DNA of 64,000 bases from Ectocarpus siliculosus (taxonomy: Eukaryota > Sar > Phaeophyceae > Ectocarpales > Ectocarpaceae). The notes below the pieces were generated by a model. The model was not told the origin of the DNA, made no database searches, and saw only the letters and a list, made by a program, of their open reading frames with translations. The position numbers and the translations under genes were made by a program. The stretch spans positions 3,835,774 through 3,899,773 of the forward strand of contig FN649740.1 of NCBI GenBank assembly GCA_000310025.1, given 5' to 3'. Positions 24,285-49,049 of the stretch are shown here, piece after piece; the first letter of the stretch is position 1; each line of letters starts with the position of its first letter.

Positions 24285-27200
24285 CTACAAAAGGGCTGGC
24301 TCATCCTCCTTGCGCCTTCTCCGCCTGCCCTTGAGCCATTCGGGCACAAGCGTGGGGTCCACCTGGGCCGGCCGTCGTTGGCGACGGGAAAGGGCAACGA
24401 AACAGCAAAACACACACGCCGTGAAGTAAACAGCAAGACACGAGCAAAACTCCGCCCTCCACACAACAAAAAATCGATCCATGAGTTAGCCACTGCTGTC
24501 GAGAGTAAAAAACACGCGGCCGGAAAAGTCCAAGGATTTTCGTTTGCAGAAGATGGGAATCCTCTCTGTCTCACCCCAATGCCCCTACTGAAGTAGTCCT
24601 CCAGATCCGCCTCTTCCATGCAGGCCTCTAGGCATTCGCGGTACTGGTTCAGCAGGTGCGGAGTCAGGCTCGCGAGCGGCTTGGCGCCGAAGGTTTGTTC
24701 CACCTAATGAAACCGATAACAATGACAAGATTGGCATTGACATACTGTGTGGAGTACAGGCCCATCGTGGCTTTCGCGAACAACAAGAACGCACGTGGCC
24801 ATTGCTGGACACAGCAGAGCACACTACCCATGACAAAAATATTGACGCTGTATCGACACGTTTGGTGGGCGGCAGCCGGAAGCGTTGTTAGAAGATTTAC
24901 AAACACCACGAGAGACTAGATCCGTTCCTAAAAAACATGAGAGAGGCGAGAGGGTGTGTTTCAGTCACGGTGAGGGTTGAGTAGAACCCGCTGGACTGAA
25001 AAAACCGCTGGAATGGGTGTCCGGTTTATATCGCGGGTGGCCACTCGCAGGTCGCGGTTGGACAGTTGACAGTCAGTGGGTCGATCGAATCCCTTCTTAG
25101 GCTACCAGCACCAGGACACAACTACCGAGACGCAACCCGGATGACAATTTCACGCGAGTCTAGAGCATTTTCGGGCGCATATTCCGAATACCAGACAGTA
25201 TCCAAGGTACCGAGCGACATCACCAGCCCAGCAGGGAGGTAAGTGCGTGTTGCTGCACGTCTGCATGGAATTCTCACCAGCGTTGGCGCCACGATGAAGT
25301 TGCCGTATCTCTCCGAGTCCACGACGACCTTGCAGCCTGCGGAGAGCACAAACAAAACGGGTCCAAAAAGGCGGAACGACAGAGCATGATGAGTTGGACA
25401 GAAAAAGGCCGGACCGGGAAGGGAAAAGAACAGTCTCACACACGCGTGGGATAACTCCTCGAAAAGCAACGCAGGGTGCTCGAGAGGTAGCCCAAGTAAG
25501 CGCGTAACGACAGCGAAGTTCGTGTGGAGACTTGTATGTGCAGCAGCAATCGCAACAAAGGGCAAACTAAGCGAGCAAACCACAACAAAAACAGTCAGAG
25601 GTGAAAGGAGGGGAAGGTTCTCAGGCCCCCCTCCCCCCCGGCCCACACACATGTGCCTGGTGGTTACGGAAGCAGAAAAAACGAGACCCGTTATGAGAGG
25701 CGACCAACTCTAGGCTCTTGTGAAAAAATGAACGCCCCGTGTTACGGAACCACCCGGTTGATCCCTGCGGGGTTCGGTACATCCGGATCACTGATGTGCT
25801 TGTGGTCCACCATCTCGTGGACTTGGGATGCTGGGTTTTCCAGAGAGCGGGACGCTCTCGTAGGCATGGAAGCTCGCATACGTAGCAGAGGGGAAGACAG
25901 CTAGCCATGGTGTGGGGTAGGGTTGGAGTAGGGTTGTTCCTCTCGCGACCATTCCCGACACACCCTCTATTTAAGAACGTGCTCACGAGCAACACAAAAC
26001 ACCTGCCGTCGATTTCTTCCTTCCATTACAATCAACATCTCATCGCGCCAAAGACATTGCCATGTTGTGGTATGCACAAGAGAGATCAACGCCAACACAA
26101 CCCCCCATCGTTTCCCGTCTCACGCAGCAGTTCCCATCGGCATCATCTCTCATCTCGCCTGCATGCTTGTAGGTCCCGAAGAAGCGAGGCAGAGCCGTGA
26201 TGAGGTCACCGTCGTTGACGAGGCGGAAGTGGTGCTTCACCCTGCTGTCCAGCTTGCGCGCAAACACCCCGTTGCCAACGCGAGGGGATCCAAACCTGTC
26301 ATCCGGTCCCAAAGATCGAATGGAGGTCATGGCAAAGCCGCTCGAATTGTAAGCAGTCCTGGGGCTCCAAGTTGGCTCGGTTTTACGAGAAAGGTTACTC
26401 ATGCGCATTGGCTTGGTTTTGAGGCTGAAGGCCACAGTCGCTGGGGCCTAGGGTAGCGCTCATGCTCAACTTAGTTTATCGGCAATGGATGGTTTAACGT
26501 CAACGTCATACAACGGCATAGAGTACACCCTGTTTCCCTCCTCCTCCCCTGGAGTGCTGTGTGGTGGCATCACAGGCGCCGGTAGCAGGAAGCGTCGCAC
26601 TCACGTGTAGAGCGTCGTTGGGTCGGGCAGCGTGAAGTTCTTGTCGATGTCGTAGGCCGCCAGAGAGGCAAGCGCGCCGCCGAGGCTGTGTCCGGTCACG
26701 TACAGAGGCCGATAATCGTCCTGCGCGATTGATCGTTGGCGGCGACAGTGATGAGACGGGGGGAGAATGTGTTGAACAACCGATGCGAAGGCTTCCAAAA
26801 ATTTAGTCCAAACAAGAGCCAGATGATGATACATCAAGTGAAATAAGTGCACACCAGGGTAGTCCTGCCAACACCAAGGCCTAAATTTTGCTCGCCGTCC
26901 AAATACCCTGCTGCACCCGAACATGCTGAGGCGTATGCTAGGCCGAAACGTAGGCGTTCTGTCCCCTGTTGCGCAACTAACGCACCCAACGTTTATCGCC
27001 AAGACCCCAGGGATGACTTCGAGGCGCCTTTTGGTACCCTCGAGGGTTGTAGCAGTGCTTGACCTCCCCCCCCCCATTTCTCCCGACCATCCTATAAACG
27101 CATTACCACAACGCTGATGTAGCACCACATCTAACCACTCTCGGTAAAAAAAAAACAAAACACGTCCCCCCCTTTCACTGCACCTTTCACCTCCCCGGTG

Positions 27201-29933
27201 TTTGCCATCGGGGTTGGGTTTTCGTCGCTTGGCAACGACGCTGTAAAGCAAGTCGCCCTGCCCGGTGTTTGCCATCGGGGTCGGGTTTTCGTCGCTTGGC
27301 AGCGATGTTGTAAAACAAGCCGATCACTTCGTGAGCTCGGCAACCAGGTTACCGTTTTTTTTTGCCTTTGTTTTTTTTTTGCGGTAACCATGAATGGTGG
27401 TCGAGTAGATTATGTTATTCGGGGTCGGGAACCCTCACTCCGCGCAAGGGGGATAATCGCACCACGTTGTGTTAAAATTGGTCAAGCACCCTCGAGGCAG
27501 TTACACAGAGCTTACAACTGTCTCTGGAGTGAAAGCACCAGATAATAAATTAAGTCATACGCAGCTGTCATCCGTACGCAAGGAAGTAAGCACAAGATGC
27601 CTAACACCCTTAGCAGGATGCAGCGCACCCTTCATGCGACTCGCCCAACATCTCACGGCGCTTCGCGCTTGGTGATGTGAGAGCCTGGTCCGGTGAGAAC
27701 CCGGCGTGCTCCGTCCCGGGCTTGTAGGGATGCGAGTTCAATGGTCTAACGACTGCGGCATGCACGACTCCCCCACTTTCACTGAATCAACCCTCTTTCG
27801 GTCTGACACCCGACCGTAGGCAACAAACGACAACACACCTGCATCTCCGCCGCAAGTGCCGCCAGCACCCTCTCCCTCAGCACGGAGTACGCCTCCCAGA
27901 AGCCGCCATGGACTCGGGGCAAGGCTTGTCTCGCCACGGGGATCCTATTGTACACGGTTGCCAAAAGAGTCACGACGAAAACCCCAAGTGCAAGAAGACA
28001 TTAACAAAAAGGCCTCTGGACGGTGCCGGCGGGTGTCGCAGTGAACACACACGCAACGCTTAGCTGCGAAGGGATGCATCCGTCGCTGCCGACTTTGGTG
28101 GAACGCAACGTGTTGTTGACGCGTGCAGCAGGCCATGACGGGGGTAACGAGGGACATGTGTGTGCCGTCCATGCCACGCTTCCGTGGCGCAACGACCGAA
28201 AAACTGGACCAAGCTCATGTCGATTGCCACTCCGGCAAAATCGTCACCGCTGTGAGGACGCGCAGACCCGCGAGGCCAGATGCGGCATTCGACGATAGAA
28301 CGCTATGGTGTGTGATGGCGAACATCGCCAACAGGACATGCATATGCCACTGACGACAATCGGACAAAGAGGAATCGTGCTTTGTAACCTGTGACCATAG
28401 CCTCAAATCTGAGATTCCTTTCAGCCGAGAGAAGACCTTGAAGAGGCTGCGGCCGCCAGTCGAACGGCGACAAAAAGAAGCGTTCAATTACTCCGTTTGG
28501 AGGGGTATTCTATGTCGTACACGCCCGCCTGAAAAAAAGAAGAAGCTGTGCACGTGCGCAACCGTCGCGTTCCCAGTTCGCAGCTCTATCCAGGGTATGC
28601 AGTTCGGACTTTCTCCCCCTCTTGGTCCCCCCCCGGTCCGAGTCGCACGTTCATCGCCTCCCCAAGTATGGTATTTGTTACGTACCTGTGTATGACTGCC
28701 TTGAAGCAGCGCGCCGCGGTGGTGGTGAAACTCCCGTCTCCCCGGGGATCGATGTGGAAATCCCCCTCCCCAAAGTTGCCACCAGCTGCTTCCAAATCGT
28801 CGCCGTCGCCAACAGCATCGTTGTTGTACGCATCTGGTGGGATTTTTGCGGTTGACCAAGAGCCGCAGTCGCACGGCGTGGGGTTTACGATAAAGGGCCA
28901 AGATTACCACAATGCAATCACACAACAGTCGCGTTCGTCAGCGCAGCAACCAATCATGATTGACAACGCTCCAGATATCGGTTTCTCGGCATGGCATGTT
29001 GGGGGCCGGGTTCTTGGTGTCGTCACTTTACCACTTGACCACGGCAGGGGTGCTGTGTGTCTATTGTACGGTCAGACCGACAAGGGGGCACGCGGAACGG
29101 TGGACGTTCCGAGGCAAGAGCGTTCCTGTGAAAGCTCCGACGACAAGCCAAAAACGTAGGTGATACAAGATACCACACCCCCTGGACCGTTTCTCAAACC
29201 TCGAACATCCACAACAGAAAGAGCGGCGGTGCCGAAATGGCGGCGTGCGAACCGCCTCGTCGAGATCTTTCCGAGAACACATCAATGGTGTTCTGGCATT
29301 CTTGTTCGTGGAGTGGTCGAGCTTTGAAAATCGATCTATGGGGCGTGAAGAGCTTCAACGACAAGCCAATAACCACTACAACGATGACGACGTCAAACCA
29401 ACAGCAGGGCCCGAGTTCAGGATCAGTGAACCGCTGCTGCGTATTGGGCGAGGCTTCCGGCCCCAGGCTGTTTTCTCAACTCGCACATGCGCGACAAGTA
29501 CACTCCTCGGCGCCTGTCAGGAAGTCTCCGGCATCTTGCGACAGCAGTGCTGGCCCTCTAACAATGAGAGGGCAATCTTCCGGAGACAGAGGGAGGCCCG
29601 TCAAGACTGTCGATCTCTATCAAAGTCGATTATTTCAGCCCTCGCAGCAGCCAGTTCCATGTGTAACATGTCCGTGATCCGGTTTGGACCTGCACAAGGC
29701 GTAATGCGCTCACGTCCGAATGTTCCCCACGCCGGCGCTGGAGAAGGAGGGAACCACCGCGCATAGCCCAAGTGCAAACTCGAAAGGGCCGTGGAAATAA
29801 TATAGTACCCAACCTGATGCATTTTCCTAATGGACGTGCGAAGACGAATGTCATGTCTACAAGGCCATCGTACAAGCTTTGCCAACCTTGCTACCAGTAA
29901 CCGTTGCCTCCCACCCGCAACACACAAAGTGGT

Positions 29934-29967
<34 letters not shown>

Positions 29968-30764
29968 CACCGCCTCCGAACTTGCTTTCGCCGTCGCTGT
30001 CACCCCCGCCGCCTACCGAAGAACCATCAGCCCAGTGCTGTCCCTCGAGCCCCTGTCCCTCTTCTTGCCCGTCTCCGGCCGCTGGGACGTGCTGTTGAGC
30101 GTCGGCATCGGCGTCACCTTCGACATCGACATGCCCGTCCTTGCTATCATTGTCGGTACCGTTGCCGCCGTCAGCGCTGTTGGTACCACTGCCAACGTCA
30201 GCGGGGGCGGAGGCAGCTGCGGACTGACTGTCAACAACACGACCACCACCACCACCACCACCACCACCATCACCACCGCCACCGCCACCAACGGTGTGTG
30301 CTCTGCCGTTGCTACCGCCGCCGCTCTCGGACATGAACAATCGGACGAGGTCGTTCGGGTTCTTCGGACGGGACGGGGCGGGAGCCCCCGTCGCAGCCGC
30401 CTGTTCCGGCTTACATGTCTCATCATCGGCAGCATCACCAGCACCCGGCTGCTTCTCTCTCCGTGCCACAGACTCGTCGCGTGATACTCCGCCCTCCGAC
30501 CCTTGCTCCTCCCCGTCCGTACCCGCACCCTCACCCCCACCCCCGGCCTCGGCTACCGAGGGCGTCGCCCCCGCTTCTGGCAATGACGACGTCGCCCCGG
30601 ACGCGGCTCCACCATCACCACCGCCGGGAGCAGCAGCACCAGCGGCTTCCTCTCCTTCCCCACCTCCGCGGGAGGCACCGCCGCCTTCGGGAGCGGAACG
30701 CCCCTCCACACCACGCGGCGTGGAATCCGACACAACCTTCCGAGGAGAAGCGGGAGTCTTCGTC

Positions 30765-30798
<34 letters not shown>

Positions 30799-33700
30799 GA
30801 CGATTGGTCGGGGACAAACCTCGGCCCACTCGGGCGGGCGAGAACCTCGCCGCCTCCGCCCTTCTCGCTCCGCGGGGAGCGGCGGCGGTGGCCGAGGAAC
30901 GCGCCGGAGAACGGGAGCGCGAAACGTCCGAGCGGGACCAAGAGGGGCCGTCACCGCTTCCAACTCCGCCGTCGAAGTTGCGGCTGCGGTTGCGCTTGCT
31001 GGTGCTGTTGTTGGAGTACGAGCGGGAGTCCCTCTGGGCGTCGTTATCGCTGAAGACATTGCTGTAGCGCCGGCTGGTGTGTGTGTTTGTAGGCAGAGGA
31101 ATAGGGGGATGGGGCGGGCGGTGTCACGACTGACGAAAGTCCTATTTGAAGTACTTCAAAACCGCCCTCAAGTACCGTTGCCCTGGGACAAGGTTTCTAT
31201 TCGCCAACATCTCAGGGCTTGCGCTTGGCGTCACGGCTCCCTCATCGCCGAAACCTTCTCTCGCCACTGGTAGAGAAACATGTCGACCGGCACAGCAGAT
31301 GGCCTAGGCGAGCGGCAAGCAGCTAAAACCGAGCTTAAACGCAGAGAACCCTGTGGTAACCACATATGCCCAAACACACCCCTACACTGGAAGATGTTTT
31401 CATTCGAAACTGAAACTCTAGCGTTGGCCTCAATCGTTCCTACCCAATACCTTTCGGTAGCAGAGAAAAGTTGGTTCAGTGGTGATGATGGGACTTCGGG
31501 GGGGGGGGGGGGGGGGGGGGGGGCCAAAGGGGGCCCCAAAAACCCCCCCAAAAAAACCCCCCCCCCCCCCTAAAAAAAGGGGGGGCCAACGCGTTTCCCC
31601 AAAGGCCCCCCCAAAAGGGGCCGAAAAAACAAAAGGGGGGGGGGGCCCAAAAAAAAAAATTTTTTTTGGGGCCCCAACCCTCCCCGAAAGGGTTTTTCCG
31701 GGGAAGCGGGGGGGGGAAACCAAAAAAAAAAATTTTTTTGAAAAAAACCCCCCCCCCCAACCCCCAGGGGGGGGGTACCTTTTTGCCCCTGGAAACTTTT
31801 TTTCGAAGGGGTCTTTTCCCGGGGGGGAAAACGGGGGGAAGGGAACCCGGCAAAAAAGGGGAAAGGGTTGGGGGGCCTTTTAAAAAACCCCAAAGAAAGG
31901 AAAATTTTTTGGAAAAAGGTGGGAACGGGGGGGNNNNNNNNNNNNNNNNNNNNNNNNNNNNNNNNNNNNNNNNNNNNNNNNNNNNNNNNNNNNNNNNNNN
32001 NNNNNNNNNNNNNNNNNNNNNNNNNNNNNNNNNAGAGAGGAGGAAAAGAGGGAGACAAAGGGGAAAAAGGGGGGGGGGGGGGGGGGGGGGGGCTCAACGG
32101 TGCCGCACAACAGCCACACACAGTAACCGCCGCAGCACCATCAAAGTAGCGGGGCCAACACGATTCACACAAAGCAGCACCAAAGAGGTCGCTGAAACAC
32201 GAGAGTGCCTGGTGCCACAAGCAGACGATCATTTCAGTGCGCAGCAACAGTCAGCGAAGGAGTTTTCGAGCGATAGCGTAGGACGTAAGCAGAGTAAAAA
32301 CAGTTTTTGACAGAACAGCGCATCGCCAATCACCGATGGTGTGCGTACCTGTTGCCGTCTGGAAGCTGTATCTCGATCGGCTCTCTTCCCGGGGGGAGAA
32401 GCTGGGGAAGTGGAACCTGCGAAAAACGGCGATAGGTTAGTGCGGCCTTTCAGACAACCCGAATGAATGGAACATCTCTGGGAGACGGTCGGTACAGGCG
32501 GTAGCTGAGCAAAGGGCATCTGCCTTTGATTAGGGTAGGCCGCTTCTTGCGGTAACGAACGGGAGGAAGGGTGTATTCGATGTGGTTTGCCAAGCTGTTG
32601 GCTCGTCTGCCCAAGAGGAAGGGTGGAACAACCAGCGGTCTTGTAACTGGTTTGCTTCTTTCGCTTGCCGACTGGCCGAATAGGCCACACACACCAAATA
32701 GTCGCTCGTCCGCTCGTACGATATTCTATTCTTGGTTAGGTATTCGGTGAAACACAGGCTGGTTGACCACAGCCTTTCATCGTCCACGAGACAACAATGC
32801 TGCCAAACGCCAATTGCTCATCGTGAGCAAATTTGGTGCGGATCGCACTAGATTCCTTGTTTTGGGGGTCATTGGCCGGTGCCAGCATGATTCACTCACC
32901 AGACGACTGAAAATAAGTCTGCGTTGCCAAAGGTGTTTCGTAACTTTCACCAAGCGTCAGATGGCGTACTTGCGGCCACCTAGTCAGCCGCCACTGCCAC
33001 AAGCACGGTTGTATTGACGTCTAACCTAACCGGTTACCATCATGGAGTTGGTAGGTTGCATGCAAAAGAACTGCGGTCCCAAAAGAAAACCAAATGAACC
33101 CAGGGAAATATTTCCAGTAAGAGTAAGCAAAACCAAGAATACAACAACAACGACAACAACAATATGCACGCAAAGGCATTCGAGCAAGAGGAAACACAAC
33201 TACAAGCAGAGGCAGAAAACAGCCAAAAAGGACAACCATGAAAGAACGGCACCTGTACTCCTACCAAAATCAGCAAGACGTGCACAGATTCTTCACTCCC
33301 GTGCAACCACTCCAGTTGCAGTTGCACCCTGTTACCTGATGAAACTTGAGATCCGTCATGAGGTTTTCCATCCTGGCGGTACCACGGAAGGCGAGAATGA
33401 GGCGGTCCTCTCCTCGACAGAGGATGGCTCGGATCTCGTGCTTCTCATCGTTGAAGTATGCCTGCCGTCGGAAGCATCAGGCGTAGAAAAAGGATGAAAA
33501 ATGTCAAGGTTGTGCCGCGTGTTCCATCACAGTTCGGTCGGTTCGCATTTCACTTTTCTTTTGTTCGAGCTTCCCGTTGTCGTATTAGTCGTGTGTGTTT
33601 CGTTTTTATTAATGCATTTCCGAGCTATTGGATTTGCTACTGTAGTACCCGTATCGATACATGGACACATGATCGTTCCATTCTCTGTATTCATTCCCTG

Positions 33701-36700
33701 TTTGCAACACTCACGTTCACTTTTCGATTTTACTTCAAAGAGCAAGAACGAGAGGCAAAAGGAACGACATGCCGCACGAGTCGCTGTCTTCCATTTCGAA
33801 CATGCCAAGTGTGGATGGAAACGGGGGTGTAGAGGTGAACATGCCAAGACAACGGGCACGCATATTCGTTTTGCCACAACGACAAACGGAGCGGCATCAC
33901 AAACAAAATGACCTTCGGCATCAGACGAGGACAGAGCAGAATGGCAGCCGTAGTCCCCCCCCACCCCCCGAAAATCCCGTTTGTACAAATAGCACTCTAT
34001 CAACGACCCTACATGGCCACAAGCGGAGGGGTCTCCAGTTTCGACCAACAAACACGCCCTGCTCGAGTTCTTGGGCCTTATAGAAGTCAAGTAGACCGCC
34101 ATGACATCAATAACAATGATCACAGCACCAGCGGCGACACAACGACAACAAGACACGAAAAACAGCAGCTACCATAGCTCACCACTAACTCGAGGCCGAG
34201 GTAGGACAGGTCCTGCCGCCCCGGCGCGACGAAGTCGGAAAGGTCGACCTTGTGGGGGTCGTAGTACGCCTGCCATGCCACTTCCACCAGGAAGCAACTC
34301 GTCTCCACGCAGAATAGCGGGGACAGCTCTTGACTGTCCTTGTACCTCCTCACCACCTCCCTGAAAATTCAACAGATGACCGCGTCAATGAAAGACACCG
34401 ACATATGACGGCTTTTAAGTGAAGTTGAATTTATAGCCGACCAACATATTCATCCGAAAAACATTCTTCCAACTATCATTAAAACCTGAGGTAATCATAC
34501 TCGTCCCGTGCATGACTCTGGAGAAACGAGGCAACAGATGACCGCGTGAATGAAAGGCACCAACAGATGACGGAAATAAGTGGAATTGAATGTATTGCCG
34601 ACCAACAATTTTCATCCGAAAAACATTATTATCCAACTATCACCAAAACCTGAGGCAATCACAATCGTCCCATGCATGACTCTGGACGCGAGAAACGAGG
34701 CAACTCCAGGGAGACGAACGCATCATCTATGTACGACGTGAGGGAAAACCGCCCCAACTCTGCAAGTACAACCGATGTGGTTAGTGGTTTGAGCGATGCC
34801 GATGATAAGAACGAAAAAATCAACGGAACGACTGTTCACAAGAAATGCAGGTATGCAGCGTGCATGACCAGTGATTGCGATGCCAAAGGCACCAGCAGTA
34901 AATCTCGAACAAGCCGCGATGATGTACGTCGTGCGTGCTCCGCATGTACACCCCAATCCGATTTGTACGACGTAAGGCTCCATCTTAGAAGAGTTTCTGC
35001 GCTTATGCCGAACCATGGCCGTCCAAACATGCTACAACGACGGGCAGGAAAGGCTCAAGACAACACCCATCGCAAGAGGAGGCCCTTCTCACGATACTTG
35101 TACCCGATGCAAATACCTTGGAGGCATGTCTCTCTCCATGTTGATGTACATGCGGTCGAAGAGGCGCTTGACGGAGTGTGTCGGGGGCAAGAAGAGGTAG
35201 GCCACGTTGTAGCAGACGGCGCTCACCAGGATCAGCTTCCCGAGAGGCTGCCGAATGCCGCCCGTCCAGGCCGATAGTCCCGCCGCGGCGCTCGTCATGG
35301 ATTTCTGGGAAAAGGAAAATATTAAGTTGTAACGTTGTGAATGGTAGGTCTCCGTGGTACCTGTCTGTAATTGGTTCGCCCGCATGAGCACGTAGACAAG
35401 GGTTCCACGAAAACTCATTCCGGCGGTGGTGGGTGGTGGAGATACCATCCGCCGCTGGAAATGTACTAGGCACATTTTTTACCATCTTGGCGAATGAAAA
35501 GCGTATTTCCCTCGGCATGTATTGTACGATACGCCCGTTAACGCCGCTTGCCGAAGTAAAAAAAAAACGGCGTTCAAACCTTGGCTAACACGGGTGGCGA
35601 AACCCACCCACCCGCGATTCGTTCCTAACTCTTTGGGGACGACGATAAGGGCTGCCAGACTTCGGCCATGCATCTACCGACCTCGGCCTTGCATGCAAAA
35701 TAACCGCCCCCCTTGTAACCCCGATTCCGTTGAAGAAATCCAGACTCACCAGGGTGAATCCGGTCGAGGCGCCAACCACGACCTGCTGCCTCAACAGGTG
35801 CCCCACGAGGTAGAAGATGTCCACACCCACCGACATCCCGAAGAGCACCGCCACGAGCATGCCCTGCATCACCATCACGCGGTACGACAGCTGCTGCCGC
35901 CGCGTGCCGAAGAACGGCTGGCCGCGCAACACTCGCCCTGCCGCCGCGTGCGCCCCCCGCGCCGCGAGACACGCAACGAGGCCAAAAGAACACCAGAAAG
36001 AGAAAAAAAAACGTAGGGAAGCGTAGCGATCTGTGAGCGTGGGGGTATTCATTTCATATGCAGAAACGGACGGTGTGTGCATTCGTCCGCGGCAGAGCAA
36101 AGTTTCCCGGGCAGGGACGCTCAAGAAGGTTAAACGCATAAATAGTTGTGAATATTCGGGCCGACACGAGCAGCCGTTTCTCAACGGAACGGTTCGCACA
36201 AGGAACGCACAGTGTAAAGAGAACAACGGCCAACATGCAGGCTCACACAATGAAACCAGCAAATGAGTTTCAACTTCAATTCAAGGAAGTGTGAAAAGAG
36301 GGAATCGTCTTCCACAGACGTTGGGGAGATTGTACCTTTATCAAGGTGGTCTCCACATTACCCCCCCTTTTTCGAGACTTCTTCTTGGGGTAAAGGGAAC
36401 CCGACCGGCTGGCGGCGGGGCGATTCACGTTTCTTCACAATCCTCTGTGCGTGAATACACGGGTTCGCTACGTCCGCCACGTCATCAGAAGTTCCGAGCT
36501 CGGTACCCAGTGCGTCCTTCTTTGGCCCACCCACCATTTTTCTTTTTCCGTTGTCTGGGAGAAAAGTTGGTGAGCGCGGGTTTTGAACCCGTGTCTTTTG
36601 CAACCAAAAGCAGACACTCCGACATCGCTGTCGACGCCATTGTGAAAAGAGAGAATCGTCCTCGACAGACGTTGGGGGGATTGTACCTTGTGAAGGTGGT

Positions 36701-39700
36701 CTCCACAGAAGTGGCCAAACAGACCCGACACAAGATGAATCCGCGCGGTGCGTCGACACTCGAGACACCACCGGAGGGCCGGGGAGAAAAAAAAGAAAAG
36801 CTTCCGTTGGTGGCTCCTGTGCGTCCAAACATGAAAAAACGTGCAAGCCACCGCCCAGAACCCATGGAAAGACAACATGCGCAACACCCTCTCGAAATTG
36901 TGGACACCATAATGTAGACATGGGACTCACCACTAGTGACGGCCACAGCGGCGAAATACATGGTCCAGCCCAACCACAACAGCCCCGAAACCATCGACAT
37001 CATGGCGTACGATAGCTGCACGCGCAGCACGCACACACCACACACACCAACAGGCACCGTCGAGGAGAGTGATTGCGACACAGAAACACACGTACGATCG
37101 GTTTCCGCACCGGCGACGTGCAGCAAGGGACAGGGAAAAAAACGAGCGCTCGTCGAAAACGAGAATAAACGGCCAGCATGTAGCAAAGGCAATCAAAGTA
37201 AACGTGTGTAGGCAACATATTCGATCTAGCGGTATTCGTGAATCTGAGAGTGCTGCCAGTTCATACGTGTTGTCATCAGCGGGTTCGACGCAACGGACAA
37301 AGTTACAGCGAACAAACACGCGCGCCCACGCAAAAGACACACGCACGTGCGTGAGATACACACGGCCTACGGCCTGCCCGCCGCATGGGGAAGAGTTGTA
37401 GTAATGAAGCAGATCGACTCTACTCCGAGCACAGAAGTGCCATGCCCAACCCAGAGCCACCAAACCGCACGAAGGACTACCGGCATCACCGCACTTGCGA
37501 CGCCCTACTGCAACTGCGCCTCCAATACACGCACCGGTGCCGACAGGCAGCAATGAGAGAGAAGACAGACAGCAATGCGAGAGAAGACAGGCAGCAAGGC
37601 GATAGAAGACAGACGGCAAGGCGATAGAAGACAGACAGCAAGGCGAAAGAAACACATGTCACAGAATCACCACGGGTCTACAGACTCGAGCCTTAGCGGG
37701 AGAAAGAGAGGCGGGAAGAGTTAAATTAAATGTACACTGAAATTGTAAGGCCTACCTCGAACAGCCCGTTGAGCCAGTCGACTTGGTCCAGACGAGCGAG
37801 ATAGGGGTGGCGCAGCAGCATCACGGCCACGCCCACCAGCAGAGAGAGAAACCCATACAGCACCTTCGGCAGGATGAAGTCGATGAAGCTATCCGACTTG
37901 GGGTGGTGAGGCGGGTACTGCATATTTTCGTTGTCGTGGTGGTGTAAATAGCAGAACCACAGAGCGGCCCAGACACAACAACGTCCAGAGAAGCCAGCAA
38001 AGGAGAATGTCGGGGACGGGGACGGGGACGGGGAGTCGGAAATTAGCAACAGTTTGGAAGGGGAGTGGTTCTTGGTGGTTGTTGTACGATCTGGAGCAAT
38101 GCATTTGATCGCGCGGCTCAGCGCGAGAAGGACCACTAGTCTCGCCGTTTTCCAACACTCCGGCGGTGTACCTCGCGCGTTGTGCCGTGTTGTAGAGACT
38201 GCTGAATCACATCGTAGGTTTCACCAAGGGGTATTGTATGCAGGAGGGAGTATCTTCACGACTGAGCACACGACAGAGCGACCAAAAGAGAGGGAGAAAA
38301 AAAACTGCAAGCAAGCGCGCGAATGGACAATCGTCGCACAAGGGTTTCCGCATCGGGAGGTTGTACCTCCCACCGCCCGACGATTCGAGCTGCCAGCCAC
38401 ACAGCCAACTTCACTCACATCGTCTTTGAGGAAACAAGGGGACGCGGCGGATTCACCCCCTTTCGTATCGACCGAGGCGTCTCCATCTTCTCCAGCCACT
38501 TGCCGGTAGGCAACGCCCGCGGCTGTGGCACTTCCGTCGAAAGAGGAGTCCGACCGTTGAGACCTACCGCGCAACACAAACATGTGCACAACACACACAC
38601 ACACACACACAAGATGGCATTGTGAGCAAAGCCTACAAATTGTCGATGTTCGTGGAGAGTACGTTCGAGAGGAACAGCCAGTATTGTGAAGCACGCTGTT
38701 GCTCTACCGGATAAAGGAATGCCTATTGTACGGGGTAGTGCGACCATGTCGGTTGTCAAAATCCGTTGAAACATGGCACAGTAAGACTGTATACAGAATT
38801 GCACATTTTCTACTAGTTCGTTGAGGTTCGCCGGGCTGTTCGAGCCAAAGACACGTAATGTTGTGCACGTGTTTGTGCGAGCTGTTGAGCTTGGGGAACG
38901 TCCCACCACAGCTGGAAGCCAGCTGTGGGTTGGCCCAGCTCCCTGTTTTATTTTCATCTTGCACCAACCCTTGATGATACCGTGCTCTCATGAGCCCAAT
39001 CCGGAGGTATGCCGGCATGTAACAAATACATTACAAAAATAATACTGCCTCGGAGCAGAGGGGTCCCTTCTTGGAGCGCCTTAAAATACAGAAGGCCAGA
39101 GGCTCGTGATTTTCGTGCGACATGTCTCACCTCTTTCTCACGAAGTGCTGCCCATCCATGAGACAGATCCAGCACAGCCACATTACCTGTCGATAGTTGC
39201 GTCACAAAGAGCAAAGTAGAGGGCAAATGCGGAGGTGTGTCTACTACGGGAGGTGTTGAGTTGGCCTTGAGGATACGGGAGACGCTGCAACACAAGGGCG
39301 TTAAGCGACGGTCGAAGCTGTTGGTGGCAACAACGATCTCCGCGAAAACCAAGCAATGAGGGCCCTGTGCAACTCTCTCCCTCTCTCTCTCTCATCATGA
39401 TCTTCATGCTCTTCATGCTGGCCATTTGGATATGAGGGCTTGACTTCGCTCTACGGCAGATTGCTGTACATCGGTTTACTATTCAGAACTAACCATCATA
39501 CCGACTCCTGCAAATTTTTCAGAACTCCACAGCAGCGGCAGGCCGCCAGCCTTACAAACGCCTCACCCCCGACCACACCCATACGAAAAAAAATACGCGA
39601 CGGGTTTTCTACGACGCCAACCGAGGCGTTTTTTAGTCATTTTTTCACAAGAAACAAGTGAGCTCCTCGCGAATTCCTGAGACGAGGGAAAAACACTCTA

Positions 39701-42700
39701 GCGCGATGTCGGCTCGAGAGAAAATACAACTGCATAAAATACAGTTCGGGACACCGTACCTGCATGCCGGTAAACTGGCAGAGGTCTCTGCATAGCTGCA
39801 CCCAGCGCCATGGTCCGGTGTCGAAGGAGGAGGGCCCGAGCAACCAGTCTTCCACGGCCATCACGGGGTTTTGCCAAAGCAACAGCCCGAAGAGTAGCAT
39901 CTACGCCATCCAAAGGAAGGGGGGGGGGTGATCGCATGATCTCTTCAGCGTTCGGGAGTTGCATGTGTCGGCTGGAGGGGTTGCATCAGTGCGGCATCGT
40001 CGGCGGGTCTAACCAACCTCTATTCACGGCAGCAAAGAGCAAAGGAGGGCAAACACTTTACCATCCTTCTGACTGTCTGAGCTTGTACTTCGAAGTATTT
40101 GTCCCGTGGTGGTTGATGCCGCCCTCGCACTCTGGCGTGATCACGTACTGTAGCCCCCTCCAGCCTCACACTCCTCCCCCTTGGAGCTTTGCCTCTATTA
40201 GTATTCTTTACCACATACTAACAAGTACTGTTTTTCCTGCCTCACCGTGATGTAACGTCGTTCCGGCACGATTGCAGACGGGGCCGGGTCTCGCTCCCCG
40301 CCGGCACCGCCGAACCCTCGCGTCATCCAGTACAGCAGCAGAAACGCCTGCAACGGAAGTTTCGCATGTTCAAACAACTTAATCAGAGTCGCAATTGGCA
40401 CATTTCGCACCATCGGAGCGAGTACGAAGAAGCATCACCAGCGCCGCAACCACCGACAGCGCTACGAGCAGCAGCAGAAAACGAGAGTGGCGACAATCAA
40501 CAGGATGCTTCACCGCCGCCCTGCTTCGCGAAGGGTCGGCGGGCAGTCCGGCGGGCAGTCCGACGGGCGGGTGGTTAGACGAACAACCGCATTCGTTCAG
40601 CACCGCAAGAGCGATCAGAGAGTATTCGCACGAGTATACAATACAAATGGAAGGAACGGTAGGACGGGTATTTTGGCTTACCGTAAGGGCGAGCAGCGGA
40701 AGGCGCGCCATGGATCGGACCTCCGAGTAGACGCGGCTTTCCGTCTCCACCTTGAATGTCGTTGACCGCGCTACAAGACCGCCCCCACCCAGAATAGGCT
40801 GCCCGCCCTGTTGTTGGCGGCGGAATGGTGCGTGCATGGAGCAACAGCAGCAACAGCAGCAGCAACAAACCATTCCGACAGCGACAGCGACACCACCGCC
40901 AACAACACCAAGTAGTCAGGAAACCACCAGGAAGAAAATAGCAGCAGCAGCAACCGCAACAGCTGCAAACGCGACGACAACCTGAGTGTCCGAAACATTG
41001 TAAACGACAGGAAGAGTGTGGTGTGCGATGCAACCAAAATCTCGCGCAGCGGGTTAGCTGCAGCGCGTCACAGCTAGCATGGGCGATGTTTTTCGTCATT
41101 GGATTGGCTGAGGCCTACTGCTTCCCAGAACGCACGAAAACGGCCAGGTGTTGGGGGCGATCGTCTCAAAACCTCCTCAAAAACCGTGAGAACAGCTCCC
41201 GCACGAATTATTCCAGGGAGAGAAGCCACGTGTGTGTGCTAGTGACGGCGGCAAGCGGTAAAACTTACAATAGCCTGTGCTTGCGAAGCGTTGAGCATCT
41301 ATCAAACGTCCAAACGTCCCGTCAAAAGCTTTCGGTACGCAATCTGATTGACGCAACAACCCACACGACCATCTGTACTACGTCGACAGCCCTGCCTGCA
41401 TGCACCCCCTCAGAGCACAAGCATTCAAGTTGTTGGCTAGTAGCGGCCGCGGCCGGCGTTTGATTGGGACCGGAGACGACAGGAAGGCATTCAACATTCA
41501 GTGCTAAGTTATTCTCGCTGCCACAATCGTGAGAGATTGCCGAATCTCGGATTTCCGGTCTACGTCCGGTAGACCAAATAGTAGATCCCACCGCCGTTAC
41601 TACGGGACCCCGTACAACACAAGGTGGCAAAAATATACTCAGGTCATGGCATATCGTTGTCGCGGTCGTTGCACATGGCGGTAGATACTGCACCTGTATG
41701 GCCAAGATCGTCGCCTTCACTGCATACTCGGAATGGTGCCCGATGATTCCGATCGAGTCCAACACCACCCTCCCCAGCGTCGACGTGTCGCACTCCATTT
41801 CGCTAGGGTGGCAGTTCAAGATCTGATTACGGCCGGCAGAAACAAACAAACAAACAAAAAAGAAGAAAAACATGGATCGTGGGGTTTCGTGATGACCACG
41901 CATTTTAGAAGGAATCCTAATACGAAAACATTAGTCCACACGATGGCGTCATGACGACCCCGAAACACACAAAGAAAAGCATCAACTGGTGTTTCGAGAA
42001 CGAAATACCGCCAACGCGATGTGTACCTACCTGTAAATACGTGCTGGAAAAACCAGTTCCAGTTTGGGTAGAAACACGAAAATCCAACAATCAAAGCGAG
42101 CGAACGCGAGTGATTTTCCTTTGCAGACTTTCTCTGAATGGCATTCATGTTCAATGGCAGCTGCCCCAGTCATACGCTTTTCGCGTCCCAACAAGCGCAC
42201 TCACAACACAAGTAAGACACAGAATTGAGTTTGTGCAGTGCCAAAACTACCGAACGAGACAGAGATACAGACACACAGACAGAGACACAGAGATGCAGAG
42301 AGACAGACAGACAGCTAGAAATAGAGATAGAGAAGGAGGGGGAGAGGAGGAAGGTGCCAGACGAGACAAGGCCCGGAAACCTGCCGAACTTGCTGGTGAT
42401 GCTACGTACAAAGACCAAAGACCGCCGGATACCTGCACGTTGTCCTGGGCAGCGCAGCTGTACAGGGACTCCCACATCTCCGTGCCTCCGACCAGTCCTC
42501 GAATCTGAAAAAAAAAAAAAAGGACTTGTTTTTCCATCGTACTGAGCCCCTTCAAGACGTTGTGTCGATGCCATTGGCATCCATGAATGGGGGCAGACTA
42601 TTCCAATGGCCAGCCGGCGACAAATAATGCAGCATCTTGGGGTCACGGGACTAACGCTGCGATACAGTTCACCAAGCAGCATGGCTCGTGCGCGCCGTGG

Positions 42701-44723
42701 ATGAAAATTGTCTGTCTTCTGTCACCTCAAGAGCAACCCCCAGGGCAAGCTGTTCCACATCATCGTCAGCATCTTGCTGGACCCCCCTGTTCCGAAACGG
42801 CAGCATCAGACCCCTCCTCCGCCCCTCCGTCATCTCCTCGTCACCACCACCAACATCTTCGATGGCCAACCCTCGGCGGCTTCGTTGCCCGCCCGCACCC
42901 TCCTGCCCGTCTACAGCATCACCCTCGCCGCCTCCGCCGCCTCCGCCGCCGCCGCCGCCGCCGGTCGCAACCCCATCCGACGGTGACGGCGTGACGAGGC
43001 CATCAACCACCTCAAAGTCAAAGTCGCCCTTCACCACAAGAAAGCTAGTCGCGTAGAGAGATCGAAGTTTTTTCGCGTTGAAAGAGAGAGAGAGCACGTG
43101 TTGTTTTTCCGTGGCCATGCGGATAGTGAAGAGGATGGGATGGAATCGAGGAGAAAGGAGGGAAGGGAGGGGCAAGGGAGGAGAGGCAGGGAGAGGATGG
43201 GGGTTAGCACGCGTGCCGCTTGTGAGGTCGGATTAACAGAGAAGCAGCAGTGCCGGTACTAGTTTAGAGCAAGACCGGAAAACACAAGTCGTGCCATTTC
43301 GACCATATCGTGAGAAGCTGTGTGAAACCGGCCCATCAAACCACTCCTACGTTGCGCCATTGCTTGGGCCTACGTTTTGCCTCGCGGAAACAAGCCTTCA
43401 CCTGCCACGACATCTGGAATAAACACGCGACAACCGCTTGACAACAAAATGTTCGATCACATGTCGCACGCGACGAACACAACAAGCCGGTACAGCGGGG
43501 ACAGCGCCTACCGAACGCTACGGCGGGCGAGTGGGCTACGCGTAATAAAGCCGGCAGACCATCATCAACACACCGACAACTGCAAAATTCGGGCAAGTTC
43601 CGTCGTAGAACATGGTTGAGCGCAAGTTCCGTAACAATTCACGCTGCCGTACGGGACAAAAGCGTTGAAAACGACAACTAACACCTGGTATGTACTCAGA
43701 AACAAATATTGCTCCTCCTCACGAGGAATTTTTATTTCACACGATCGATGTTGTGTGCGGGGTAGAAACAACAGGGCCCCGCTTCCCTCTCTCCCTGGAT
43801 ACATACGTTTTACCAACCTGTTGTGTATGGGAGCGCCCGTAACATTCCAGCTGCAAACCCCGGAGTCGTCGCAGGCGTTACCCGAGGGGGGGAACAAGCG
43901 TGACGTCACGTCTAGCTTCCCCATATCAAGCCACAGCGCCAGAGCCAAGAGCCTTTGGGCCGTGTCGCACGCGGGAGGAGGCATGCACATGGTGAAAACG
44001 TCGGAACAGAATAGGAGGCCGTGCAGCAGTGTACCGTATACGGTGCCGACAAGCGATACCGACGAGAAGGGTGGGAGGGTACCAAACATGCGCAAAGAGG
44101 ATTTAAAGAAAGGCAGCCAAAACATAAAAAAAAACAAAAGAGCAAACGACACTGGGGCTCTGATTCCGCCGCATAGCGAAACCGAACGGGCATCGGCAAA
44201 AGAGTTCCATTCCGGGCGGTCTCCCTCGGCAACCCCTCGAGAGGACACCCAACAGTCATCTTCCCGATCCTCGCACCAAGACAGCAAGCAGCGCCTCACC
44301 AAGACCACAGCAACGACAGGGAGGCAGCTGGTTTCACAGCAGCAAGAAGGAGGCGTCCCGCTTCAGCATGGCGGCCAGAGCTGCACTGAGCCGCGGCAGC
44401 CACCAAGTTATACCCTACTCTCAGGCGCTAGCAGCCTTGCCCCAACAGAAAGCGACGCCCCAACTTTGGTGGGCCCACAAACGTGGGCGAGAATCGGCCA
44501 GAAGACAAAAAGATTGGCTTTTACGTGAGAAGGAAGGCGCGCATGTTGCCACTGCCACATACCGCGGCGAGCGGCGGGTGTGTGTGTGTGTGTGTGTGTG
44601 TTTTATTATTATTAGCATCGACCGCGCTAACCGGCTGACCAATGAAAATACGTCAGTCTTACGATTGTGCGGTTGAAAACACAAAACACTTCTATCTGCC
44701 ATGAACTGGGACCCCGTGAGGGG

Positions 44724-44762
<39 letters not shown>

Positions 44763-46081
44763 CTCACAGGTAAGGGAGGATGAACACCGCGTAGGTGGCC
44801 GGGCTTCCCAGCGATTCGAGCTGGATCTCTGCCGCCTCCACCAGCCGCACGCCGTGCTTGTAGAAGATCTGGTGACCTGTTTCGAATTCGGTTGTTTAAT
44901 GCGTCATTTCAACGTGTCAAAACAGGCGGTCCAAAGTACGGAGGTACAGGTCGAAAGGGATTGCTACTCAGGTGCAAGCGGGAAAAGCGGTGTGAAAAAT
45001 CCGCCGCCGAAACAGCAGTGTCACGAAAACGCAACACAGGAGGGAGGAATATACCGTGTTGTCGGACGGATTGTGGGGGGGTGCCGGCAACAAGACCCCC
45101 GTCCTGCTACTTGCGGCTTCATTTATCCGTCGCCCCCCGGTGCGGTTGGGGGACTCACGACGGAGCTGCCATGTGCGGGCGGTCGATGCAGGCCACAAGA
45201 GCGGCAGCAGCTGCAGCAGCTGCAGCAACAGCGGCGATGGCACAAGTAGCAGCAGTAGCAGCAGTAGCAGCGGCTTCGTACATTTCGGGGGTATTTGGCG
45301 CGGTTCTACAACCAATGCGCCACTATTTTGTTTCGAGGTGCGTTTCTGAGATAATGTAACAGCCTCAATTTGGTCCCGCCCGTCTCGGAACCATGTTGCG
45401 AGTAACGCTCCCTTAAGCTCCACCGTCCACTGTTTCAACCGACAGCACAGCAGATGCTCCCCCCACGTTCGTACGAAGCGCGTACAACGCGGCTCCGCGA
45501 AGCACACGTTTGGGGATAAGAGACACATACCCCTGCGAAACACACGCGGTTGTTTTCTTCCCCGTGCTTGAGTGGCTTAGCGGGGCGGATTCCAAGCAAA
45601 GAAACACAGGCAGAGACGGTCTTTCTTCTATTGCAGGTGCTCTGCATCCAGAGACTGGACCCTGTCGTCAAAACTCTTACACACCATGCCGGGGGAGCTC
45701 GACAGCTATAAGGTGTGCCCGGGTTTTTCGTCCCGCGATAAAAGGTCACGTATTTTCATTAGTCAGCCCGCTTCGCTCGGCGCGTGCTACCCAAATGCAA
45801 ATAACCACACACCCACGCACACAAGCACAATGCTATAGGTGCAAGCAGCGCACAGGCATCCCGGACAAGAAAGCACAAGCCTTACCCTGGTCGTCAACCT
45901 TGCGCCCTTTCGCAAACGCGGTCTTGGGCTTGTCCGATGAAATTTTGCGCTCGATTTCCCCCCCCCCCCCCCCCCCNNNNNNNNNNNNNNNNNNNNNNNN
46001 NNNNNNNNNNNNNNNNNNNNNNNNNNNNNNNNNNNNNNNNNNNNNNNNNNNNNNNNNNNNNNNNNNNNNNNNNNNNACGGG

Positions 46082-46114
<33 letters not shown>

Positions 46115-48118
46115 TTTTTAATGGGGTTTGGGAAAAATTTCCGGGGCCCCCTTAAAAAAAAACTTTTTGGGGGGGGGGGCCCCCCCGGGGGGGAAAAAAA
46201 CCAAAATTAATTTTGGGTTAAGGGGGCACCCCAGGGGACCCCAACAAAGATTTTTGGGGGATGGGGGGGGCAAAAAAAGGGGGGAACAAGGGGGGAAAAT
46301 CATTCCCCAAATCCCCCGGGGGACCCAAATTGGGGAAAAAAAAAAAAATTTTTAAAAACAGGGGGGAAAGGGGGGGCTTTTTTTTCCCTAAAAAAAATTG
46401 GGGGGAAAAAAAATTTGGGCCCCAAAAAAAAATTCTAAAAAAAAAAACCAAATTTTTTTTTGGGGGGGAAGGGGCTCCCCAAAAAAATTTTAAAAAAAAT
46501 TTTAAAAAACGCCCCCAACCCAATTATTAAACCGGGGAAAAAAACTTTTTTTTGGGAAAAAAAAAGGGGGGGGGGGTTTTTTTTTTTTTGAAGGTGCTTT
46601 GACCCCAAAAGAAGGGCCCTTTTTTAAAAAATTTTTCCCCCCCAGCGGGGGGGGCCCCAAAACTTAAAGGGGGGCCCCGGTTTTTTCCCCCCGAAAAAAA
46701 AGGCCCGTTTTTTTTTTTTTCCCCCCGCTTCCCCCGGGGGGGGCCCCCCAAAAGAAAAAAACCCCCCCCCCCCCCCCCAAAACCAAATTTTTAAGGGGGA
46801 AAGCGGCCCCAGGCCCCCCGGAAAAAAAAAAAAAAACCTTTCCCGGGGTTTAAACCCTGGCCCCTTTTGAAAAAGGGGTTTGGGGGTTTTCCGAAAAAAT
46901 TTTGGCCCCGTTTTCCCCCCCCCCCCCCCCCCCCCACGCCGCTGTCCCCCCACCCAGATCCGTAACCCCCGCCCGCACCAGCACGACGCAAGAGAGGCTG
47001 ACCAGCGCCCGACAACACCCCCCCCCCTCTTGCGACGGTGCCTCCCCGACCGCCGGCGCCGACGTTTCCAGCCAAGTGGCGTCTGCTTTGGGTGCCCGTC
47101 TCTGCTGCCCACCACGTGTTGCTGTTCTCTCTCTGGAGGCCACCGCCCCCGCCGTCGCCGCCGGCGGTCTCGAAGGACGCCGAGAAAGGGTTGACCGCGC
47201 TCTGCTCCAGCGGAGACCTCCACGTCGACCTCTTCTTGCCGCCGCCGCCGGAGGAGACGGAGGAGGACGTGGAACGCGCGACTAGGAAAGGGGAAGGCCT
47301 CCCTTCCGCCGCGAAACCTTCGCCGTTCCGGGGGGGCCCTCTCCCGCTCGCTCTCGGCCGTTCGCCTGCTGCTGCTGCTGCTCCCGGGGGTTCTCCCGAG
47401 AAAACACTCGACCGGGCGCTCCCACCGCTAGCGCTCCCACCGCCAGTCCTTGAACTGGCAGGCGCCAGCAGCGCCGTCCTCTCCGCACCCTGGTTCGAGG
47501 TCAGAGCACCACTGTCGGCGTTGGCGGTTATGCCTCCGCTGCGGCCGATGCCCCAGGACCCCCACCTCGACACGCCGCCGTGGGTCGACGACGACGACGA
47601 TGACGGCGACGCCGCCGCTGACAACAGCGTCGTTCCCACCGATCGCTGTGATACCTGCGAGCCTACCGGTCCTCGCTGCTGCTGCTGCTGCTGCTGTGCC
47701 CCCCTCGCCCCTCCCGTCGCACTCCGGCCGCCTTCAGACCCGACCTCAACGCCACCACCGCTGCCGTAGTCATCCCTTCGAATGACGGTAAGGCGAGGGG
47801 CGTTCTCAGCCAGAGGGGAGGCGCGGCGTCTCGGCGGCGGCGGCGACGAGAACACGTGCCCCGCCGGGGGTGGCGGGCCGTACCCCCTCCCCACTCCGCC
47901 GGACGGTGCCGCGCCCCCAACCCCACCGCTAGCGGCGGGGCCTGCCCACGCCGGCGTTTGGGCTTGGCTTTCGCTTTGACTTTGCCACTGCTGCTGCTGC
48001 TGCTGCCAGTGCCGTTGTGGTGGCTCGTCGCTCCTTCCATCCGGCGGGGCCCCCAACGTCCATGGGGCCGTCGGCAGCGCTACGTCCTCCTGTCGGGGGA
48101 ATGCGGAATTTTGGCAGC

Positions 48119-48151
<33 letters not shown>

Positions 48152-49049
48152 GAGTATTGGAGCAGGTCATCGTTGATCTCGTCAGAAATATCGCCGTGGA
48201 GATGGCTGGGTGTTCCTTGGCCCAAAAATAAACTTTAACCGTGCTGACTTCTGCGACGAAACTACAACAGCAGCATGCTCATGAACTTTTCAGCGGCCAC
48301 GTTCGTCGATCCTGGCGAGGATACCGACCAGCATTGTTCCATCGCAGACTTGGTCGCGAAACTGTGCATGGAAAATTAAGTCCCCACAACGTCCCGCATT
48401 CCCGCATCGCCGCGGCGCAGAGTAGTTTCTTATTTCCGAGCGGCCGAAAACTGCACTTTTGAAGAAATTGTTCCTCATTTATGGGTGACAGCATGAAAGG
48501 GATGGCTGCATCTTTCCCGCCATCTCCCGTGTCTGACAATCCATCAGAATTTTCGTCCCGGTTCTTATCCTCGGAATGAGATGCATGCACAAAACAACAG
48601 TTGCCTCACGTCTCGCAGTTTGTGTAGCCGCCAGTAGCACCGCCTGTTACGCTGTCTGTGTAGCCGCCCCTTCTAACAAATGTTCTGATTGAATCCTACA
48701 TTTCTTTCTCCCCTGCGAGAAGCCAGCCTCCCAACAAACCACGCCAAGCCCAACCGCGTGTACCCCCAGCAGTAGCAGCTAGAACACACCGTGCCACAGA
48801 CCAATCGGCACCCGCCGTCAACACACATGGAGAGCACTTATGTTCTCTGCATGTTGGACCCACCTTTCCCTTGAACAGCCCCCCCCAAGGGGCTTGAGCA
48901 CGCTTCTTTCGCCTTCCGCCGCCACCGCCGCCGCCCGAGGTGCCGTCCGACTGCTGCTGCGGCGGCGGCGACTCCGGGTCTCTGCCGGGGTAGTTGCCGT
49001 AGCCGCCGGGGATTCGAACCCGGGAAGACGAAGGCGGGCAGCGCTCCAT
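24285..49049 (-). CDS. Giant membrane protein: Wntless/TMEM181-like domain fused to class 3 lipase
   Basis: About 28 exons, at least 1,900 residues, read from ATG 49047-49049 to stop TAG 24285-24287. Exons in order: 48864-49049, 46936-48089 (into gap), 45886-45956 (out of gap), 44768-44876, 43818-44159, 42726-43044, 42433-42504, 41694-41822, 40682-40750, 40246-40347, 39760-39900, 39187-39284, 38419-38563, 37756-37917, 36931-37015, 35750-35937, 35117-35304, 34183-34360, 33336-33461, 32349-32416, 29971-31073, 28686-28833, 27839-27944, 26605-26720, 26159-26295, 25278-25336, 24575-24703, 24285-24362. Every junction outside the gap is phase-consistent, and the order of domains is preserved across all of them. 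The predicted enzyme cleaves acyl esters of lipids, most like sn-1 diacylglycerol lipases in being membrane-anchored. Transcript data are needed to exclude two separate genes. Confidence 0.75.
27181..27768 (-). mobile_element. tRNA-derived SINE-like element, copy 1
   Basis: Read on the minus strand, the head carries a box A-like sequence (TGCCGCAGTCGTTAGA) and, about 45 bp on, a box B-like sequence (GGGTTCTCACCGG) that can fold as a T-arm. The body is shared with the copy at 58.9 kb and includes GGTTACC...GGTAACC around T-rich tracts. The element is flanked by near-identical sequences, CCCCCCCTTTCACTG on the left and CCCCCACTTTCACTG on the right, a probable 15 bp target-site duplication. It lies in an intron of the lipase fusion gene, in the same orientation. 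Confidence 0.7.
27197..27328 (-). repeat. Two tandem 66 bp tail units of the SINE-like element
   Basis: GGTGTTTGCCATCGGGGT starts at 27197 and again at 27263. Copy 2 at 58.9 kb has only one such unit, so tail number varies between copies. Confidence 0.7.
29935..29969. repeat. (CTGT)n microsatellite at a 5' splice site
   Basis: About eight CTGT units. On the minus strand the repeat begins within a few bases of the donor G|GTGAGA of exon 29971-31073. Confidence 0.85.
31498..32092. other. Assembly gap (100 N, 31934-32033) with unreliable flanks
   Basis: From 31498 to 31933 and from 32034 to 32092 the sequence is a chain of stretched homopolymers bounded by poly-G, unlike any natural sequence around it. 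This looks like failed base calling through a G-rich tract. It falls in the intron between exons 32349-32416 and 29971-31073; the phase of those exons fits without an extra exon. Confidence 0.9.
34371..34703. repeat. Tandem duplication, unit about 162-171 bp
   Basis: Both units start AACAGATGACCGCGT (34371 and 34533) and share TCATCCGAAAAACATT and CATGACTCTGGA. The array begins 10 bases intronic of the acceptor of exon 34183-34360. Confidence 0.85.
36293..36709 (-). repeat. Repeated segment with tRNA-like sequence (probable second SINE family)
   Basis: The stretch GAATCGTC(T/C)TC(C/G)ACAGACGTTGGGG plus AAGGTGGTCTCCACA occurs at about 36300 and 36650. Next to the second copy, read on the minus strand, is a tRNA-like sequence: CAGCGATGTCGGAGTG (box A-like), CTTTTGGTTGCAAAAG (anticodon-arm-like) and GGGTTCAAAACCC (box B and T-arm). 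The acceptor-stem ends do not pair, so it is not a working tRNA gene. It is intronic. Confidence 0.5.
37541..37650. repeat. Minisatellite, about 22-23 bp unit
   Basis: About five units close to ACAGACAGCAAGGCGATAGA in an intron of the fusion gene. Confidence 0.75.
38587..38611. repeat. (CA)n microsatellite
   Basis: On the minus strand it is a (GT)n tract about 25 bases upstream of the acceptor of exon 38419-38563. Confidence 0.85.
44577..44602. repeat. (GT)n microsatellite, first tract
   Basis: About 12 GT units in the intron between exons 44768-44876 and 43818-44159. Confidence 0.85.
44727..44761. repeat. (GT)n microsatellite abutting a donor site
   Basis: About 17 GT units. On the minus strand the (AC)n begins directly after the donor GTGAGT of exon 44768-44876. 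Confidence 0.85.
45957..46935. other. Assembly gap (100 N, 45977-46076) with unreliable flanks
   Basis: Poly-C runs into the N block on the left. From 46077 to about 46935 the sequence is stretched homopolymers ending in another poly-C. No frame in it should be trusted. The gap interrupts exon 2 (or exons 2 and 3) of the fusion gene, probably in a GGN glycine tract. Confidence 0.9.
48114..48150. repeat. (CAG)n/(CTG)n trinucleotide repeat in intron 1 of the fusion gene
   Basis: About ten uninterrupted units. On the minus strand it is a CTG tract ending roughly 25 bases before the exon 2 acceptor (CCCCCGACAG). Confidence 0.8.

Follow-up and report, generated by a model that had tools for sequence, protein, structure and literature searches.

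Within a 64,000-nucleotide (nt) stretch of the Ectocarpus siliculosus genome (assembly GCA_000310025.1, contig FN649740.1, positions 3,835,774 to 3,899,773; hereafter, the window), we analyzed a minus-strand gene whose predicted product joins a multi-helix membrane domain to a lipid-cleaving enzyme. The reading we favor, with a probability of ~0.7, is that of one gene for a membrane-bound lipase consisting of a first helix, a lumenal part, seven helices bundled in the manner of Wntless/TMEM181 (GOST) proteins, a linker, and a class 3 lipase facing the cytosol. Judging by sequence, the Wntless/GOST-type module and the lipase are very probably combined in one protein, and this combination is duplicated in the genome. 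The parts of this reading visible in the DNA itself are a single frame, eight helices, a lipase triad, and three paralogs with the same order of membrane and lipase exons.

Exons in the window were located by reading the sequence and then checked for open frame, splice sites, and phase. The preliminary description of this locus had placed 26 exons in one frame; we found that 22 exons (44876 to 24285) splice in phase into a single frame of 871 residues closed by a stop codon at 24285, whereas the full set of 26 and a start at 49049 were not joined. All 22 acceptors are AG, and 20 of the 21 donors are GT, with one GC (after 26159). The exons, including the putative first one, are as follows.

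48864..49049, minus: putative first exon with an ATG at 49049, unjoined to the rest
44768..44876, minus: exon before and into helix 1 (AG/GT)
44300..44327, minus: tentative micro-exon with the remainder of helix 1 (AG/GT with a fitting phase; picked by eye)
42726..43028, minus: lumenal region and low-complexity insert, 5′ end tentative (splice model)
42433..42504, minus: lumenal region (splice model)
41694..41822, minus: lumenal region (splice model)
40682..40750, minus: part of helix 2 (splice model)
40246..40347, minus: helix 2/helix 3 (splice model)
39760..39900, minus: helix 3, N-P motif common to the paralogs (splice model and paralog alignment)
39142..39186, minus: helix 4 micro-exon, VMWLCWICLMDGQHF (AG/GT, phase 0-0; raises the profile score from 25.8 to 34.3 bits)
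37756..37917, minus: helix 5, PKV motif (splice model and paralog alignment)
36931..37015, minus: helix 6 (splice model)
35750..35937, minus: helix 7 and QQLSYR motif (splice model and paralog alignment)
35117..35304, minus: helix 8, LFLP motif in all four copies (splice model and paralog alignment)
34183..34360, minus: linker from helix 8 to the lipase (FCVET...AW.AY.DP...G.ELV)
33336..33461, minus: lipase, LILAFRGT (Lipase_3 match)
32349..32416, minus: lipase (Lipase_3 match)
27839..27944, minus: lipase, VHGGF (Lipase_3 match)
26605..26720, minus: lipase, catalytic Ser in GHSLGG, Ser codon start at 26687 (Lipase_3 match)
26159..26295, minus: lipase, catalytic Asp (26207) and His (26165), GC donor (splice model, triad alignment)
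25278..25336, minus: lipase (splice model)
24575..24703, minus: C-terminal exon (splice model)
24285..24362, minus: last exon with the stop codon and a basic tail (splice model)

The membrane part is joined to the lipase part between 35117 and 34360, where the helix 8 exon meets the linker exon in phase; the phases over this junction also fit in one of the paralogs (C24A). In the frame of the linker exon, a stop codon is located two codons before the acceptor, the exon itself contains no Met, and the first Met (residue 90) falls beyond the first conserved lipase strand, so an independent lipase start at 34360 would not be easy. The intron after helix 8 measures 756 bases in the window and 191 and 276 nt in C24A and a second paralog (C24B), respectively, so that the two shorter introns could hardly hold both the end of one gene and the promoter of another. 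The linker motif FCVET...AW.AY.DP is common to the window gene, C24A, and C24B. Because several diverged copies in the genome have the same arrangement, a one-off misjoin is unlikely. A single gene explains the locus far better than two separate genes do.

The Pfam family Lipase_3 (PF01764) matched the lipase part with an E-value of 1.3e-29 (103.3 bits; cut-off, 22) and the whole 871-residue protein with an E-value of 7.3e-29. The triad is present, with Ser in GHSLGG (codon 26687), Asp in NDGDLI (26207), and His in KHAG (26165). A comparison with the PDB sequence set returned 37 distinct sequences at E ≤ 0.001, the best being the triacylglycerol hydrolase 1tgl (2.7e-15), the Rhizomucor lipase, whose alignment runs through GHSLGG and the sequence around Asp and His. 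The complete class 3 lipase with intact Ser, Asp, and His that had been proposed from the sequence was thus borne out by the Pfam match and by the triad aligned to 1tgl. The window protein shares the Pfam family, GHSLGG, Asp, and His with class 3 lipases but differs from those such as 1tgl in that eight helices and a conserved linker precede its lipase and tether it. Elsewhere in the genome, a separate lipase cluster (G000:C10:3986905-4521031) contains six Lipase_3 matches, four of which have a TGA in frame, and may include pseudogenes.

Hydropathy (19-residue mean above 1.1, overlapping ranges merged by hand) revealed eight hydrophobic helices ahead of the lipase, with helix 1 lying partly on the tentative micro-exon. 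A ninth, weak hydrophobic stretch in the linker (residues 551-570; mean, 1.11) was not counted as a helix. Diacylglycerol lipases alpha and beta are membrane-bound class 3 lipases with four N-terminal helices, and the hydropathy profile agreed with the earlier suggestion of an eight-helix membrane domain unlike theirs. The layout of helix 1, an intervening region, and seven further helices follows the plan of the WLS-like_TM/GOST proteins (Wntless, TMEM181, TMEM87, GPR107/108, GPR180, and TMEM145), which have a lumenal region and seven helices; Wntless has an N-terminal helix before its lumenal part, as does the window protein. Unlike the GOST-type proteins, the window protein continues after helix 8 into an entire class 3 lipase. 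Basic residues after helix 8, a basic loop between helices 6 and 7 (five K/R and no acidic residue), and a strongly acidic region between helices 1 and 2 suggest that the end of helix 8 lies in the cytosol, which would place the lipase there as well.

To look for relatives, we used the organism's own genome (189 Mb, 492 contigs) and found three paralogs, two as inverted copies on one contig (C24A and C24B) and one on another (C138), all with membrane exons followed by lipase exons. In C24A, 11 exons give a continuous frame of 745 residues that extends from helix 1 as far as the first lipase strand; the C138 copy seems to run off its contig end (last lipase piece not found). The membrane parts of all three passed the WLS-like_TM (PF06664) cut-off of 28.3 bits, with scores of 38.5, 34.5, and 33.0 (E-values of 1e-9 for C24A, 1.8e-8 for C24B, and 5e-8 for C138) and nearly the whole model covered. 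None of five decoys (one reversed, four shuffled within residue classes) matched WLS-like_TM, the best decoy match to any family being 0.0089. The window membrane part in turn matched a profile of the three paralogs with an E-value of 1.6e-8 (best of 20,000 shuffles, 0.055) and, without the helix 4 exon, 6.5e-6 (best shuffle, 0.0037).

The identity between the window gene and the C24 copies over the membrane part, linker, and lipase start was 25-26%, as measured on an older reading of helix 4. In a comparison that used the same older reading, all four copies have N-P in helix 3 and share LFLP at helix 8; QQLSYR precedes helix 7 (QLSYR in C138), and PKV precedes helix 5 (also in C24A and C138; LKV in C24B). 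The ratio of nonsynonymous to synonymous substitution rates (dN/dS; NG86 method, codons aligned by tblastn, given without error bars) between C24A and C24B was 0.23 for the membrane part (323 codons) and 0.29 for the linker and lipase (309 codons), and between C24A and C138 it was 0.30 (323 codons) and 0.34 (239 codons), respectively. Single exons ranged from about 0 to 0.69, with the top values (0.65 and 0.69) both from comparisons with C138. The helix 1 exons of C24A and C24B (G000:C24:1808513-1809183 and 1847631-1846963) are 98% identical over 172 residues with a dS of 0.02; this looks like recent gene conversion, since dS in the other exon pieces is 0.16-0.68. For the frame of the N-terminal exon of C24A, a comparison with the window gave no clear match (best E-value, 3.7). 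Outside this genome, 99 pattern matches in viral_contigs and 48 in genome_contigs yielded no confirmed relative, neither collection having been made for eukaryotes.

Several results weigh against the favored reading. The window protein has no WLS-like_TM match in Pfam among the matches listed up to E = 10 (one of the two scans used an earlier exon model without exon 39186-39142, the other the final model). In the PDB sequence set, the window membrane part had no Wntless match, nor did a profile built from all four membrane parts (both with the older helix 4 reading); the one weak match of this profile was a light-harvesting subunit (E-value, 0.29). HHalign and hmmsearch with shallow profiles found nothing against the canonical Wntless gene of this genome on contig C40. 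The lumenal piece of the window protein matched no Pfam family, and a GOLD fold of this part is putative. Two loops run counter to the topology: loop 7-8, lumenal in the model, has three K/R and no acidic residue, and loop 4-5, cytosolic in the model, has one K/R and three acidic residues. Among the paralogs, the helix 1 exon of C24B has frame breaks, C24A shows its later lipase pieces as open, unspliced stretches, and only two of the four C24A linker/lipase pieces scanned matched Lipase_3 (4.5e-8 and 1.4e-8). Finally, the exon joins in the window are predictions from the sequence.

The proposal of a Wntless/TMEM181-like membrane part therefore stands only in part: the Pfam check on the window's own membrane region gave no MIG-14/Wntless/TMEM181-family match, and the kinship comes through the three paralogs above the WLS-like_TM cut-off, which are homologous to the window gene. 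The window copy appears too diverged for a direct Pfam match. Because the shallow comparison with the canonical gene found nothing, the case for kinship depends on the Pfam model together with the paralogs. That canonical Wntless/TMEM181-type gene lies at ~175 kb on the minus strand of G000:C40, where a stitched piece matches PF06664 at 4e-28, and further PF06664 exons occur on C11 and C19. For a C-terminal enzyme, the PF06664 genes on C40, C11, and C19 were checked only by tblastn of the window protein.

In the favored arrangement, the order would run from helix 1 through the lumenal or extracellular part and the seven-helix bundle to the linker FCVET...AW.AY.DP and the alpha/beta-hydrolase lipase, which would face the cytosol. 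The Wntless-like module may carry the lipase to endomembranes or the plasma membrane and hold it there, where the tethered enzyme would cleave acyl lipids of the bilayer in which it sits. More speculatively, the module might take up lipid or acylated cargo and pass this cargo to the lipase or thereby activate it. The modest reading is a membrane-tethered lipase positioned by the Wntless-like part; the bolder hypothesis is gating by lipid, cargo, or ligand.

GOST proteins are widespread, and how they work is mostly unclear. Wntless is described as chaperoning lipidated Wnt proteins, and GOST proteins as combining a GOLD domain with seven helices (PMC9711517); several GOST members are located in Golgi and endocytic membranes (PMC12716839). 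This localization agrees with the alternative, to which we give slightly less than even odds, that the membrane part serves solely as an address label, anchoring or transporting the enzyme but uncoupled from lipase activity. Nothing speaks directly against it, but the conserved linker might mean coupling.

More doubtful is the idea that these genes represent an unrecognized family, Wntless/GOST-type proteins that include a lipase of their own, and that the membrane module, on taking up lipid or acylated cargo or on sensing a ligand, gates this cytosolic enzyme. If gating holds, this would be a further kind of seven-transmembrane (7TM)-enzyme fusion, acting directly on lipids, beside the six types of oomycete G-protein-coupled receptor (GPCR)-bigrams. 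The fusion ties the GOST fold to lipid cleavage, so the release of fatty acids could serve as a direct readout for lipid binding or state transmission by the Wntless-like bundle. In an alga, it might also supply lipid signaling with free fatty acids, although this is speculation.

Somewhat less likely again is a sense-and-respond receptor enzyme, in which the lumenal part binds an outside ligand and directly activates the lipase, as in the oomycete GPCR-enzyme fusions. PMC5784254 describes six GPCR-bigram types with PIPK, TKL, INPP, AC, PDE, or aspartic protease accessory domains, and these join a 7TM module to a catalytic domain in one gene, as the window gene appears to do by sequence; the several copies with an average dN/dS below 1 also accord with such a role. 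However, none of the six types described there has a lipase, the 7TM part here is Wntless-like rather than GPCR-type, PMC12716839 states that molecular evidence of G-protein signaling by GOST proteins has not been reported, the chaperone role of Wntless points elsewhere, and ligand binding is hypothetical. The Wntless-like protein with a lipase may be regarded as a variant of known 7TM-enzyme fusions, with a putative function. The word "lipase" is absent from the main text of PMC9711517, PMC12716839, and PMC5784254, which deal with related 7TM proteins. The full-text literature gave no Wntless-lipase fusion among the matches listed, in line with the earlier remark that no described one was known.

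We consider it improbable that the gene encodes an ordinary membrane lipase of the diacylglycerol lipase type with a membrane part unrelated to Wntless. A class 3 lipase, a window membrane part that alone has no Wntless match, and the empty shallow comparisons with the canonical Wntless gene would suit such a protein, but the eight helices, the long region between helices 1 and 2, and the WLS-like_TM scores of all three paralogs argue against it. Very improbable is a Wntless-like gene and a neighboring lipase gene misjoined by eye and co-duplicated, for which the sequence-based joins and the 756-base intron could be cited but which is countered by the startless linker exon with its nearby in-frame stop, the shared linker motif and short introns of C24A and C24B, and the fitting junction phases in the window and C24A.

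The weakest exon calls of the gene model are the helix 1 micro-exon (44327-44300) and the point at which exon 43028-42726 begins on its 5′ side, both chosen by eye, and the helix 4 exon, which is tentative. Exon 39186-39142 ranked fourth by score among 216 candidate models, with 34.3 bits (top three: 34.6, 34.4, and 34.4), and was selected for its splice sites and a W...DG motif rather than for the top score. It replaced an in-frame extension upstream of 37917, which would need a non-canonical or poor splice site. Likewise, an exon end at the GT after 26124 was rejected because it breaks the phase to the following exon, whereas the GC donor after 26159 fits both the phase and the paralog sequence there. 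GC donors occur in both the window gene (26158) and C24A (G000:C24:1809184), at different exons.

At the 5′ end, exon 49049-48864 is open with a GT donor and ends in phase 0, and the next confirmed exon requires one leftover base, so at least one more exon should lie between 48864 and 44876, a region with low-complexity sequence and an N gap (45977-46076). Exon 44876-44768 and the C24A helix 1 exon both start with two bases of a split codon. A 410-residue low-complexity open frame (31123-29894, minus) lies near an assembly gap, within the intron that separates lipase exon 32416-32349 from lipase exon 27944-27839; it is probably intronic or an optional exon, since the flanking exons join in phase directly and the joined GNRIPVARQ matches the paralog sequence GINRIPILRQ. 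Beside both 100-N gaps, homopolymer-rich text (46100-46950 and 31480-31930) by eye resembles poor contig-end sequence rather than genomic DNA.

The same genome has 87 matches to the light-harvesting family PF00504, indicating a photosynthetic eukaryote, with dense gene arrays, many of equal score, at G000:C16 (100-282 kb), C92, C232, and C488. A photosynthetic alga appears to have a small gene family that places a Wntless-like eight-helix module and a complete lipid-cleaving enzyme in one protein. Elsewhere in the window, a 295-residue open frame at 14799-15683 on the plus strand resembles leucine-rich repeats by eye.

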